This document shows, in pieces, positions 4,119 through 33,637 of a DNA stretch of 64,000 nt; the first letter of the stretch is position 1; every line of letters begins with the position of its first letter. Source of the stretch: Propioniciclava sinopodophylli (lineage in GTDB: Bacteria; Actinomycetota; Actinomycetes; Propionibacteriales; Propionibacteriaceae); assembly GCF_004324755.1 (NCBI RefSeq), contig NZ_SDMQ01000002.1, positions 124,001 to 188,000 of the forward strand, read 5' to 3'. The notes beneath the pieces are model-generated. The model ran no database searches and was not told the origin of the DNA. It was given only the letters and a program-made list of their open reading frames with translations. The position numbers and the translations under genes were made by a program.

Positions 4119-5465
4119 TCAGGCGTGCGCGGCGGCCAGCCGGACGTCGTCGGCGTCCGGGGTGCGGCGGCCGTTGTAGACGTCCTCATCCAGGATGCCG
4201 TTGCGCTTGGCGACGATCGTCGGGATCAGCGACTGGCCGGCCACGTTGGTCGCGGTGCGCGCCATGTCGAGGATCGGGTCGATCGCCAGCAGCAGGCCGA
4301 CGCCCTCCAGGGGCAGGCCGAGCGTCGACAGCGTCAGCGTGAGCATCACGATGGCGCCGGTGAGGCCGGCTGTGGCGGCGGAGCCGACGACCGCAACGAA
4401 CGCGATGAGCACGTAGTGCTGGAGGCCGAGCGGGATGTCGAACAGCTGCGCAACGGTGATCGCGGCCAGCGCCGGGTAGATGGCGGCGCAACCATCCATC
4501 TTGGTGGTCGCGCCCAGCGGCACGGCGAACGACGCGTAGCTCTGCGGGACGCCGAGCTTGTTGATGGTGTTGCTCTGCGTGACCGGCAGGGTGCCGATCG
4601 AGCTGCGGGTCACGAAGGCCAGCGTGATCGACTCCCAGGCGCCGGAGAACCACCGCCGCACCGACAGGCCGTGCATCTTCAGCAGCAGCGGGTACAGGCC
4701 GAACATGACGATGGCGCAGCCGAGGTACACGTCGAGGGTGAAGATGCCGAGCGGGGCGATGAGGTCCCACCCGTAGGTGGCCACGGCACGGCCGATGAGG
4801 GCGGCGGTGCCGATCGGGGCGAGCAGGATGACCCACCACACCAGCTTCTGGAACACGGCCAGCAGCGAGCCCGCGACCTCGATGAACGGGTTGGCCTTCT
4901 CCCCCACCGCGAGCGCGGCGGCGCCCAGGGCGATGCCGAGCACGACGAGCTGGAGCACGTTGAAGTTGAGGCTGGTGGCGACGGTGGCGGCGTCGGCGTT
5001 GAAGCGGCTGGACGCCTCGAGGCCGAGGAAGTTGACCGGGACGAGGCCCTTGATGAAGTCGAGCCAGGTGCCCTGGGTCGCGACGGCGCGCGCGCCCTCG
5101 GTGCCGATGGAGGCCGACGCGCCCGGGTTGGTGAGGACGCCCAGGCCGATGCCGATCAGGACCGAGATGAAGGCGGTTATGGCGAACCAGGCGAGCGTCT
5201 GGACGGCCAGCTTCGCGGCGTTGGCCACGTGGCGCAGCTGGGTGATGGAGACGATGAGCGCGGTCAGGACCAGCGGGACGACGATGACGCGCAGCAGCTG
5301 CACGAAGATCGTGCCGACGGTGTTGAGGAGCTCCTTCAGCCAGGCGACGTCGAAGGTGCGGGCGAGCCAGCCGAGGAGGACGCCGGCGGCCAGGCCGGCG
5401 AGGACCTGAGCCCAGAACGGGAACGACGCCTTCTTGCGAGCGGGCGCCGCGGATGCGGTGGACAT
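4119..5465 (-). CDS. DAACS-family cation:amino acid/dicarboxylate symporter, possibly cystine uptake
   Basis: Membrane symporter of 448 residues of the dicarboxylate/amino acid:cation family. Visible motifs are the re-entrant loop SSIGTLPVTQSN (about residue 288) and GATTKMDGCAAIYPA (about residue 322). In sodium-coupled glutamate homologues the second motif reads NMDGT; here the first Asn is Lys and Thr is Cys, so ion coupling or substrate may differ. The ATG at 5465 has GAAAGG 7 nt upstream. A 22-codon leader peptide with two Cys codons precedes it (5581-5649). Because such leaders usually precede sulfur genes, and because DAACS includes the TcyP cystine importers, cystine or another sulfur amino acid is my inferred substrate. 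Glutamate or dicarboxylates remain possible. Confidence 0.85.
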   Translation of the reverse strand: MSTASAAPARKKASFPFWAQVLAGLAAGVLLGWLARTFDVAWLKELLNTVGTIFVQLLRVIVVPLVLTALIVSITQLRHVANAAKLAVQTLAWFAITAFISVLIGIGLGVLTNPGASASIGTEGARAVATQGTWLDFIKGLVPVNFLGLEASSRFNADAATVATSLNFNVLQLVVLGIALGAAALAVGEKANPFIEVAGSLLAVFQKLVWWVILLAPIGTAALIGRAVATYGWDLIAPLGIFTLDVYLGCAIVMFGLYPLLLKMHGLSVRRWFSGAWESITLAFVTRSSIGTLPVTQSNTINKLGVPQSYASFAVPLGATTKMDGCAAIYPALAAITVAQLFDIPLGLQHYVLIAFVAVVGSAATAGLTGAIVMLTLTLSTLGLPLEGVGLLLAIDPILDMARTATNVAGQSLIPTIVAKRNGILDEDVYNGRRTPDADDVRLAAAHA

Positions 5466-5513
5466 GGGTGTGCCTTTCACGGACGGGTTGCGACGAGGAG
5501 GACCGCCGGGCGT

Positions 5514-5561
5514 GCTCGCGCGCGGACGAGCGAGCAGGACGGCAGGGCGCCGAAGGGGCGC
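5514..5561 (-). promoter_or_regulatory. Hairpins between leader peptide and symporter gene
   Basis: Two small stems lie in the 115 nt between the leader stop codon and the symporter ATG: GCGCC/GGCGC (5547-5551 with 5557-5561) and GCTCGC/GCGAGC (5514-5519 with 5530-5535). They could form a Rho-dependent or intrinsic attenuator controlled by ribosome stalling on the leader. The arrangement is inferred, not proven. Confidence 0.4.
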
Positions 5562-5580
5562 GGGGGTTGGGGGTGGGAGG

Positions 5581-5649
5581 TCAGCCCCGACAACCACTGG
5601 TGCTGCGCAGGCAGAGGTCGACGGTCAGTCGACGCCAGAGACCCGGCAT
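5581..5649 (-). CDS. Cysteine-containing leader peptide (22 aa)
   Basis: Short gene starting with ATG at 5649 behind a perfect AGGAGG (5656-5661) 6 nt upstream. The product begins MPGLWRRL and ends VDLCLRSTSGCRG, with Cys at positions 13 and 20, the second just before the stop. The R-x-x-VDL-x-x-R-S-x-x-x-C pattern matches the short leader peptides that precede sulfur or cysteine genes in many actinobacteria. It lies 115 nt upstream of the DAACS symporter on the same strand. Ribosome stalling at the Cys codons under cysteine shortage would be the expected control. No other function is expected for so short a product. Confidence 0.75.
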   Translation of the reverse strand: MPGLWRRLTVDLCLRSTSGCRG

Positions 5650-5679
5650 GCAGCACCTCCTCGAAAAGTTGATGCATGA

Positions 5680-5709
5680 ACCATAAGCCCGCGCGGGGAC
5701 CGCCACCAA
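5680..5709 (-). promoter_or_regulatory. Promoter of the leader peptide-symporter unit
   Basis: On the minus strand TTGGTG (5704-5709) is followed after 18 nt by TATGGT (5680-5685). This would give a message starting about 25 nt before the leader ATG. No operator was recognised. Confidence 0.5.
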
Positions 5710-5728
5710 CTCGACTCGGCAACCGCGG

Positions 5729-6562
5729 TCAGGAACGCCACCAGTCCTCGAGGATCGTGACCGGCGTCGTCCGCTTGTGGCGGGTGCGCCGCCAGGTTGT
5801 CTCGATGCGCTCCGCGACGGCGTCGGGGACGTCGCGGCCCTCCAGGTAGTCATCGATGTGGTCGTAGCTGATGCCCAGCTCGTCTTCGTCCGGACGCCCC
5901 GCGTTGCCGTCCAGGAGGTCGGCGGTGGGCACCTTGGCCCACAGGCGCTCGGGCGCCTCGAGGTGCTGCAGCAACTGCCGGTTCTGGCGCTTGTTGAGCC
6001 CGAACAGCGGCAGGATGTCGGCCGCGCCGTCGCCGAACTTGGTGAAGAAGCCCATGACCGACTCCGCGCCGTGGTCGGTGCCGACCACCAGCAGGCCGTT
6101 GTCGCCGGCCACCGCGTACTGGGCGACCATCCGCAGGCGCGCCTTCACGTTGCCCTTGTTGAAGTCGGTCATCGCCTCGCCGACGGCGGTGTCGTACTCG
6201 GCCTCGAAGCCGTCCACGCCGGGCGCGACGTTGTAGGTGATGGTGCGGTCGGCGGCCACAAAGTCGATCGCGGCCGCGGCGTCCGCCTCGTCGTGTTGCA
6301 CCTTGTAGGGCAGCCGCATGGCGACGAAGGTCGCCTCTCCCCCGTTCGCGCGGACGCGCTCGACGGCCAGCTGCGCGAGGCGCCCGCCCAGCGTTGAGTC
6401 CACGCCACCGGAGATGCCCAGGACGTAGCCCTTCGCGCGCGCGGAGGTCAGGTAGTCGACCAGAAACCCGACGCGCGCCTCCACCTCGGCGCCGGGGTCG
6501 ATCTCGGGCTTGACGCCGAACTCGTCGACGATGGTCTGCTGGAGCTCTCGCATGGGTGCCAT
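5729..6562 (-). CDS. nadE: NH3-dependent NAD+ synthetase
   Basis: Amidates nicotinic acid adenine dinucleotide to NAD+ using ammonia and ATP in the cytoplasm. The 277-residue length equals the ammonia-dependent form; there is no N-terminal glutaminase (nitrilase) domain. The ATP-pyrophosphatase loop SGGVDST sits near residue 50, and downstream ELGISYDHIDDYLEG and TRHKRTTPVTI match the C-terminal part of bacterial NadE. ATG 6562 was used; a second in-frame ATG at 6553 is equally possible. It is divergent from the gene at 6608 and followed by the leader peptide-symporter unit, which has its own promoter. Confidence 0.95.
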   Translation of the reverse strand: MAPMRELQQTIVDEFGVKPEIDPGAEVEARVGFLVDYLTSARAKGYVLGISGGVDSTLGGRLAQLAVERVRANGGEATFVAMRLPYKVQHDEADAAAAIDFVAADRTITYNVAPGVDGFEAEYDTAVGEAMTDFNKGNVKARLRMVAQYAVAGDNGLLVVGTDHGAESVMGFFTKFGDGAADILPLFGLNKRQNRQLLQHLEAPERLWAKVPTADLLDGNAGRPDEDELGISYDHIDDYLEGRDVPDAVAERIETTWRRTRHKRTTPVTILEDWWRS

Positions 6563-33078: not shown

Positions 33079-33132
33079 GCCTTGCTCCAATCCGTTCCCT
33101 GCGTCGCGGTTTCGAACCGGGAGGGCCACCTG

Positions 33133-33147
33133 CCACCGGGGAAGTGG
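33133..33147 (-). ncRNA. Candidate cis-acting hairpin (mraW-motif position)
   Basis: On the minus strand CCAC-TTCCCCG-GTGG forms a 4-bp hairpin with a 7-nt loop, in the mraZ-rsmH gap about 55 nt before the rsmH ATG. A conserved RNA called the mraW motif is known at this location in some actinobacteria. Whether this sequence belongs to it needs a covariance search. Confidence 0.3.
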
Positions 33148-33190
33148 TGTCAGGGGATCCGACCGGGTCGAAGCCTCGGCGCAGGGCTCC

Positions 33191-33637
33191 TCAGTCGATC
33201 GGGCGGGGGGCCCCGCCCGGGAAGATCTCCTCGTCCATCCGCGCGAACTCCTCGTCCTGCGCGGACTGGTACGCCTCCCAGGCGGCGAGGTCCCAGACCT
33301 CGACCCGGTTGAACGCACCGATCACGGCGATCTCCTTGTCCAGACCCGCGTAGTTCCGCAGAACCGGCGGGATCGTCACGCGTCCCTGCTTGTCGGGGGC
33401 CTCCTCCGAGGCTCCCGCGGCGAACATGCGCTGGAAGTCACGGATGCCCCGGACCGTCGAGGACCCGCTCATGGCCGCCTGCGCCTGCCGCTGGAACTCC
33501 TCGACGGTGTAGATCGCGAGGCAGCGCTCCTGCCCCTTCGCGATCACCAGGCCGTCGCCGAGCTCGTCACGGAATTTCGCCGGGAGGACGAAGCGGCCCT
33601 TCTCGTCGACCTTCGGGAAGTGGGTGCCCAGAAACAT
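33191..33637 (-). CDS. mraZ: Transcriptional regulator MraZ
   Basis: DNA-binding repressor of the dcw operon, 148 residues with two SpoVT/AbrB domains: [21 protein letters not shown] near the start (two blocks) and [19 protein letters not shown] in the second half. ATG 33637 has GGGAGG 6 nt upstream. It is the first gene of the cluster, and the upstream region holds four 10-bp spaced AGTGG sites (33668-33702), the expected MraZ target, so autoregulation is likely. Confidence 0.96.

Follow-up and report, generated by a model that had tools for sequence, protein, structure and literature searches.

What is the role of a 22-codon open reading frame with two cysteine codons that lies just ahead of a transporter gene in Propioniciclava sinopodophylli, and what does the transporter carry? 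Both are on the minus strand of the 64,000-nucleotide stretch of DNA analysed here (the window). The leader ORF, MPGLWRRLTVDLCLRSTSGCRG, consists of 22 codons and a TGA stop (5581..5649) and is preceded by a strong ribosome site, GAGGAGG (5656..5662). Its first Cys codon is the TGC of codon 13 (5611..5613), and the proposed sensor is the TGT of codon 20 (5590..5592), which is followed by two codons and the stop (CGG GGC TGA). A Val-Asp-Leu core (5614..5622) sits seven residues ahead of the sensor Cys. A gap of 115 nt (5466..5580), with two short hairpins predicted by RNA folding (about 5547..5561 and about 5514..5535), separates the leader stop from the start of a DAACS/SDF symporter gene (4119..5465; Pfam PF00375) that encodes 448 aa and contains GATTKMDGCAAIYPALAAI. 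On the other side of the leader is an ORF (6562-5729, minus strand) that we take to be nadE. The original prediction had described the leader with its ribosome site, the second Cys two codons before the stop, the distance to the symporter and the two hairpins, and all of this is borne out. An Rfam search at gathering thresholds gave no match near the leader; elsewhere in the window an mraW RNA (RF01746) scores above gathering at 33087-33192 on the minus strand.

Is the leader more than a chance reading frame? A strict leader was defined as a short ORF, located in the 300 nt ahead of the symporter gene, with [VI]D[LF]-x7-C and a stop within nine codons. The same GTDB family provided 147 genomes, 66 with some symporter match; 44 of the 46 rows with at least 54% identity to the symporter were used as loci, and two partial orthologues at contig ends (G085, G078) were left out. 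The motif is present upstream of 29 of these 44 orthologues, and it is absent from the 44 reverse strands, from 2200 dinucleotide shuffles and from 984 other 300-nt windows of the family loci. Looser forms that keep the sensor Cys are found at L007, L009, L019, L026 and L038, and others were spotted by eye at L011, L028 and L029. At L017 and L021 the VIDLC sequence is retained and the sensor Cys is gone, and no leader was seen upstream of L004, L031, L032, L033 and L037.

The class set began with 296 genomes, of which 76, own genome counted, match the symporter at E 1e-60 or better; 75 were used (G236, a partial orthologue, was left out), and the resulting 118 loci include 74 added beyond the family loci. 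Strict leaders precede 88 of the 118 symporter orthologues and are spread over ten GTDB families (f1, f2, f5, f18, f20, f21, f29, f31, f38, f46), and 8 of the remaining 30 loci have looser forms. Strict leaders are absent in f4 (2 loci), f34 (2), f37 (5) and f44 (1); f41 also has none, but one looser form is present. Two loci, L009 and L116, offer just 201 and 160 nt of upstream sequence. A further, named set represents the best 80 of 586 loci, with class assigned from organism names, and has strict leaders at 36 of 65 actinobacterial loci and at none of 15 alphaproteobacterial orthologues; several named loci align from residue 31 or later only, so that the annotated start may be misplaced and the leader count there can be too low. 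The alphaproteobacterial orthologues in this best 80 of 586 (L179, L182, L185, L186, L188, L199, L203, L219, L222, L226, L234, L235, L242, L243, L254) show 56-60% identity and were possibly transferred. Control paralogues, 20 SDF symporters of the same family drawn from rows with 24-33% identity to the symporter, have no leader. The loci share ancestry, and at least one contig of the named set is a repeat (L184 has the length and place of L027); the counts are therefore of non-independent events. As judged by these comparisons, the leader is real and conserved, and the original prediction, which had staked itself on conservation among orthologues, withstands them.

The sensor position is distinguished by its codon. 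It is TGT in 88 of 88 strict class leaders and in all 8 looser forms. The pooled set gives the same result for all 124 symporter leaders and for 107 of 107 unique 42-nt cores, both counts including named loci from the best 80 of 586. The same codon occupies the sensor position in 31 of 31 leaders ahead of other genes that were found in the A1 or NF042934 searches; these comprise the NF042934-type leaders L053-L082, Cys-run leaders too, together with L051. The position seven codons ahead of the sensor is also Cys in 44 of the 88 strict leaders; in the pooled set, where 68 leaders have this Cys, its codon is TGC 62 times and TGT 6 times, or TGC 63 and TGT 6 when no start and stop filter is applied, both tallies including the best 80 of 586. 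The first Cys codon of the window leader, a TGC, is by this comparison probably not the sensor. In the symporter genes Cys is encoded by TGC 171 times and by TGT 4 times; ten ORFs of the window that were treated as genes use TGC 19 times and never TGT. Thus the sensor Cys is always the rarer of the two Cys codons in the copies examined. The codon UGU is decoded by tRNA-Cys through wobble. An unusual choice is also seen at the conserved leader Asp, which is GAT in 32 of 88 leaders, as against 98 of 1663 Asp codons in the symporter genes (GAC 1565), and CGA is likewise elevated at Arg positions of class-set leaders. The GAT excess indicates that leader codon use is unusual beyond Cys; it is absolute for Cys only.

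From which promoter might the leader be transcribed? In the window, a possible housekeeping-type promoter, TTGGTG-N18-TATGGT (5680..5709, minus strand), was seen by eye and is not of the SigR type; a similar layout is also visible by eye in L005, and a consensus scan of 5400-5800 found no consensus sigma-70 site. The relatives present a different picture. The sequence GGAAT-N17-19-GTT is the consensus given for Corynebacterium glutamicum SigH, and the thiol-stress sigma factor SigR of Streptomyces coelicolor is the orthologue of mycobacterial SigH, according to the available portion of PMC10012870. Among upstream regions of 320 nt, 17 of the 44 in the family set contain the N18 form and 18 contain the N17-19 form; family-set shuffles gave 7/4400 and 20/4400, respectively, and the N18 form is absent from the 44 reverse strands and from 896 other windows. 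The class set has the N17-19 form at 46 of 118 loci, 35 of which also carry a strict leader, with 0/118 reverse strands and 8/3540 shuffles as controls. The site is present at all 13 loci of family f21 and at 8 of 65 actinobacterial named loci (best 80 of 586), and at none of the 20 upstream regions of the paralogues. It is absent from the window and from L002-L006, which thus lack the mark of the SigR/SigH regulon; L008, from the same genus as the window genome, has it. Of the 35 loci with both site and leader, 32 have an in-frame start codon 9-14 nt past the GTT (194 of 2345 anchor positions in the control), a spacing that fits a leaderless transcript at the SigR-type loci. Promoters of this type are also present without a recognised leader at L116, L124, L125 and L139 (f37), and at the Corynebacterium loci L249, L251 and L252 among the best 80 of 586 named loci.

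The leader also has a counterpart elsewhere in its own genome. A profile built from the leaders finds the window leader at E 3e-10 (itself a profile member) and a second leader on another contig at E 2.6e-5, ending in ...HVDFARVRSSQCCCGC; a third match, at E 1.4, was set aside. The second leader (L051, C43:143678-143731) has a QCCCGC end, and the gene just after it is presumably that of a ferredoxin sulfite/nitrite reductase-like protein. The NCBIfam family NF042934 (cis_reg_atten, putative leader peptide) shares the [VI]DL pattern and a Cys near the end with the window leader type, but the window leader scores 12.4 bits and falls below the curated cut-off of 27. At E 0.1 the window genome has no NF042934 match; a sub-threshold match elsewhere in it, at 12.9 bits, was not used, as the threshold concerned also matched 10 of 14 control genomes. 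Of 98 class genomes, 83 have a match to the family at E 0.1 and 67 have one above cut-off; of 14 control genomes, 1 and 0 do, respectively. Matches above cut-off lie directly upstream of f21 orthologous symporters in three cases (G205:C1:3087149, G187:C119:8936, G221:C295:34960). Where the genes behind several NF042934-type leaders are readable, we take them to encode rhodanese, sulfite reductase, cysteine synthase and other sulfur functions.

What, then, does the symporter carry? It belongs to the SDF family (Pfam PF00375, E 3.2e-95), as a TcyP-type protein should, and the segment GATTKMDGCAAIYPA is well conserved among its orthologous proteins. The best NCBIfam matches, DctA and GltP, are all far below cut-off, so that the symporter is without assigned function there, and among solved structures it comes closest to aspartate/glutamate transporters. 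Both observations would suit a real Cys leader in front of a symporter that is merely co-regulated and moves another substrate, e.g. glutamate/aspartate or a C4 acid. Overall identity is of little help, as it is 30% to Escherichia coli TcyP and 28% to GltP, hardly different. Against another substrate is a one-residue insertion with the motif GCAxxYPA, in which the symporter and E. coli TcyP, annotated as a cystine/sulfocysteine:cation symporter, are alike, and which is absent from GltP, DctA and SstT among the four E. coli SDF proteins compared. This signature, derived here from one TcyP sequence and not a published family definition, is present in 111 of 118 orthologues and in none of the 20 paralogues. 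In the same segment E. coli TcyP has GQNG where the window symporter has KMDG. The paralogues, with neither leader nor SigR-type promoter, also speak against simple co-regulation, and another substrate appears unlikely, if still a reading with some weight.

On the strength of these comparisons, the probable substrate is cystine or another, related sulfur amino acid. SDF proteins have been linked to cystine in other bacteria. Cj0025c of Campylobacter jejuni, of the TcyP type, is described in the excerpted text of PMC8015009 as a demonstrated cystine transporter. Cg2810 of C. glutamicum, an SDF symporter as well, belongs to the sulfur regulons of both McbR and CysR and is a proposed cyst(e)ine transporter; it is likened to the window symporter by SDF family and proposed sulfur link, but it is controlled by repressors at the promoter, unlike the leader control proposed for the window gene, as far as the excerpt of PMC2580772 goes. 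The earlier suggestion of a cystine or sulfur importer gains support from the TcyP signature, from the second leader with its presumed reductase gene and from the SigR-type promoters of the relatives.

How could a paused ribosome be felt by the symporter gene? The same Cys leader could act on translation, with the paused ribosome opening an RNA structure that would otherwise occlude the ribosome site of the symporter. A precedent is the translation attenuation of Mycobacterium smegmatis cysteine genes cited in the accessible part of PMC13236596, and the predicted fold of the window leader RNA is somewhat more stable than those of shuffled sequences, although the gain is modest (5670-5440, z -1.91; 8 of 200 shuffles equally good). 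Models of the 88 leaders led to the rejection of sequestration: the symporter ribosome site has a mean unpaired probability of 0.454 in the free RNA, 0.459 once the Cys codon is masked and 0.462 under a control mask (p 0.72 and 0.55), and the Cys mask produces a rise of more than 0.1 in 3 of the 88 and a fall of more than 0.1 in 1. The gap is also unconserved in length, ranging from 30 to 219 nt across loci. Control at the level of symporter translation is for these reasons quite unlikely. The same gap lengths, together with the lack of a terminator-like site in the window and of any unmasking of the ribosome site in the 88 leaders, speak against the hairpins as the switch, a part of the original prediction that does not hold up.

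Other pairings were seen near the leader start. Base pairing is possible between the ribosome site of the leader, GGTGCTGC, and GCAGCACC within the leader. It is predicted in the window fold and can also be read in relatives of the genus, being exact in L001, L003, L005 and L006 and having a mismatch in L002, but it does not occur in L008; by this fold model it might hide the leader start. Another candidate partner for the ribosome site is CCTCCTCG, which lies in the gap.

Which positions of the leader are constrained? Numbered from the sensor Cys (0), V/I (-10) and D (-9) are present in all 88 strict leaders, R (-13) and L (-8) in 87 each, and S/T (-3) in 79; the search pattern itself demands V/I, D, L/F and C, and does not demand R and S/T. 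Four codons (AGC, AGT, TCC, TCG) are used for the conserved Ser, and five for the Arg at -13. As Ser appears in both AGY and TCN forms and Arg in five codons, selection seems to act on the leader peptide. In the pooled set of 183 actinobacterial loci (class and named, the named drawn from the best 80 of 586, as for all pooled figures here), a Cys lies 7 residues past [VI]D[LF] in 124. Spacings of 2, 3, 4, 5 and 6 residues are found at 29, 4, 4, 9 and 0 loci, and spacings of 8, 9, 10 and 11 at 19, 3, 1 and 1; in all but one locus such a Cys is an extra one in a spacing-7 leader. From sensor to stop there are 0-8 codons, where up to 29 were permitted, and the distance from sensor to symporter is 39-246 nt.

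The peptide-level conservation, above all R at -13, D and L, and the fixed distance to the sensor codon with a free distance to the downstream RNA, would be expected if the nascent R-x-x-[VI]-D-L segment caused a pause at UGU from within the exit tunnel, the ligand possibly being cysteine or a related small molecule. The arrest peptide TnaC has a spacing that resembles that of the leader motif. However, plain codon hunger would equally yield an invariant Cys codon, and because D and L/F are built into the search motif, R alone counts independently; nascent-peptide arrest is thus decidedly unlikely as the explanation. A trp-type attenuator, in which the gap hairpins form an intrinsic terminator, is highly improbable, since in spite of the two short hairpins and of the intrinsic terminator reported for the M. 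tuberculosis ilvB1 leader (in the portion of PMC13236596 consulted), no terminator-like site lies between leader and symporter or anywhere at 5400-5800, TTTT occurs in just 10 of 88 leader-symporter gaps, and the leader is retained even with gaps of 30 to 32 nt.

Regulation through Rho is left as the favoured reading. The window gap is 0.53 C and 0.23 G, a candidate Rho-loading (rut-like) stretch of C-rich, G-poor RNA past the leader stop, such as a Rho-dependent (tna-like) attenuator would have; base composition is the property examined here. In the class set 82 gaps measure 30 nt or more, and C exceeds 1.5 times G in 76 of them. The region -100..-14, which runs into leader coding sequence wherever the gap is short, passes this mark at 68 of 88 loci with a strict leader versus 8 of 30 without (Fisher p 1.3e-6), at 1 of 20 paralogues and at 3 of 15 alphaproteobacterial loci (best 80 of 586). 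C-richness extends into the symporter genes, whose first 90 nt have C>G in 116 of 118. The absence of a terminator and of site unmasking, the C-rich gap and an earlier suggestion of Rho for such leaders together favour Rho, with reservations, and action at the gap is judged from base composition. The C-rich gap, the TGT rule and the SigR-type promoters of relatives go beyond the original prediction.

The leader is accordingly read as a cysteine sensor that would control a TcyP-like symporter, a cystine or sulfur amino acid importer, by way of Rho, a reading to which we assign a probability of roughly 0.6. For ribosome pausing, the part of Rho, the substrate and the direction of the response we infer the following. 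When charged tRNA-Cys is plentiful, ribosomes would pass the UGU codon and exit at the nearby stop; Rho could then load on the bare C-rich gap, and transcription would end ahead of the symporter gene or soon after entering it. Under a shortage of charged tRNA-Cys, a ribosome would wait at UGU, near the stop, and exclude Rho, and the symporter would be made. In relatives with a SigR-type promoter two signals would meet, as oxidised thiols would activate the promoter and a lack of cysteine would let the transcript through.

How does this compare with leaders already described? Like the actinobacterial Cys attenuators, the window leader is a short ORF with a Cys codon near its stop, here ahead of a gene with a proposed role in sulfur uptake. 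Cysteine-responsive attenuation by leaderless polycysteine short ORFs of mycobacteria was reportedly described by Canestrari in 2020; the leaderless start resembles that of the SigR-type relatives, whereas the window leader is preceded by a ribosome site. Cys leader peptides of the cys operons of Mycobacterium and Propionibacterium acnes and of cbs in Bifidobacterium longum are described in the excerpt of Seliverstov 2005 (PMC1262725), and these are similarly short ORFs with Cys codons near the stop and no terminator hairpin. Rho was suggested there, as a weak prediction. In that text they have runs of Cys codons ahead of cys or cbs, whereas the window type has one invariant UGU ahead of a symporter. 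The metL leader of Streptomyces lividans, annotated as methionine-dependent, precedes metNIQ and so a sulfur amino acid importer, as the window leader would on the present proposal; it has three Cys near its end and an unclear terminator, and unlike the window leader its sequence is without the VDL motif, as given in the excerpt of PMC8079986. Among the matches listed in the open-licence literature, within the portions of text available, neither an SDF symporter behind a Cys leader nor a fixed UGU is described.

Could one rule hold across the actinobacteria? A tunnel-acting R-x-x-[VI]-D-L that stalls the ribosome with a single UGU in the A site, joined to a SigR-type promoter, might constitute a two-input switch. 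This is a tentative proposal, on balance rather doubtful. If true, a single codon, and not a Cys run, would sense charged (or correctly modified) tRNA-Cys, and disulfide stress and cysteine shortage together would gate a class-wide cystine importer.

For the cysteine-sensing leader as such, the invariant UGU and the fixed peptide geometry offer a sharp prediction for amino acid sensing by a single codon. A widespread SDF family without NCBIfam function would be linked to cysteine supply and becomes a candidate actinobacterial cystine importer. The SigR-type promoters of the relatives would connect cystine uptake with the response to oxidised thiols.
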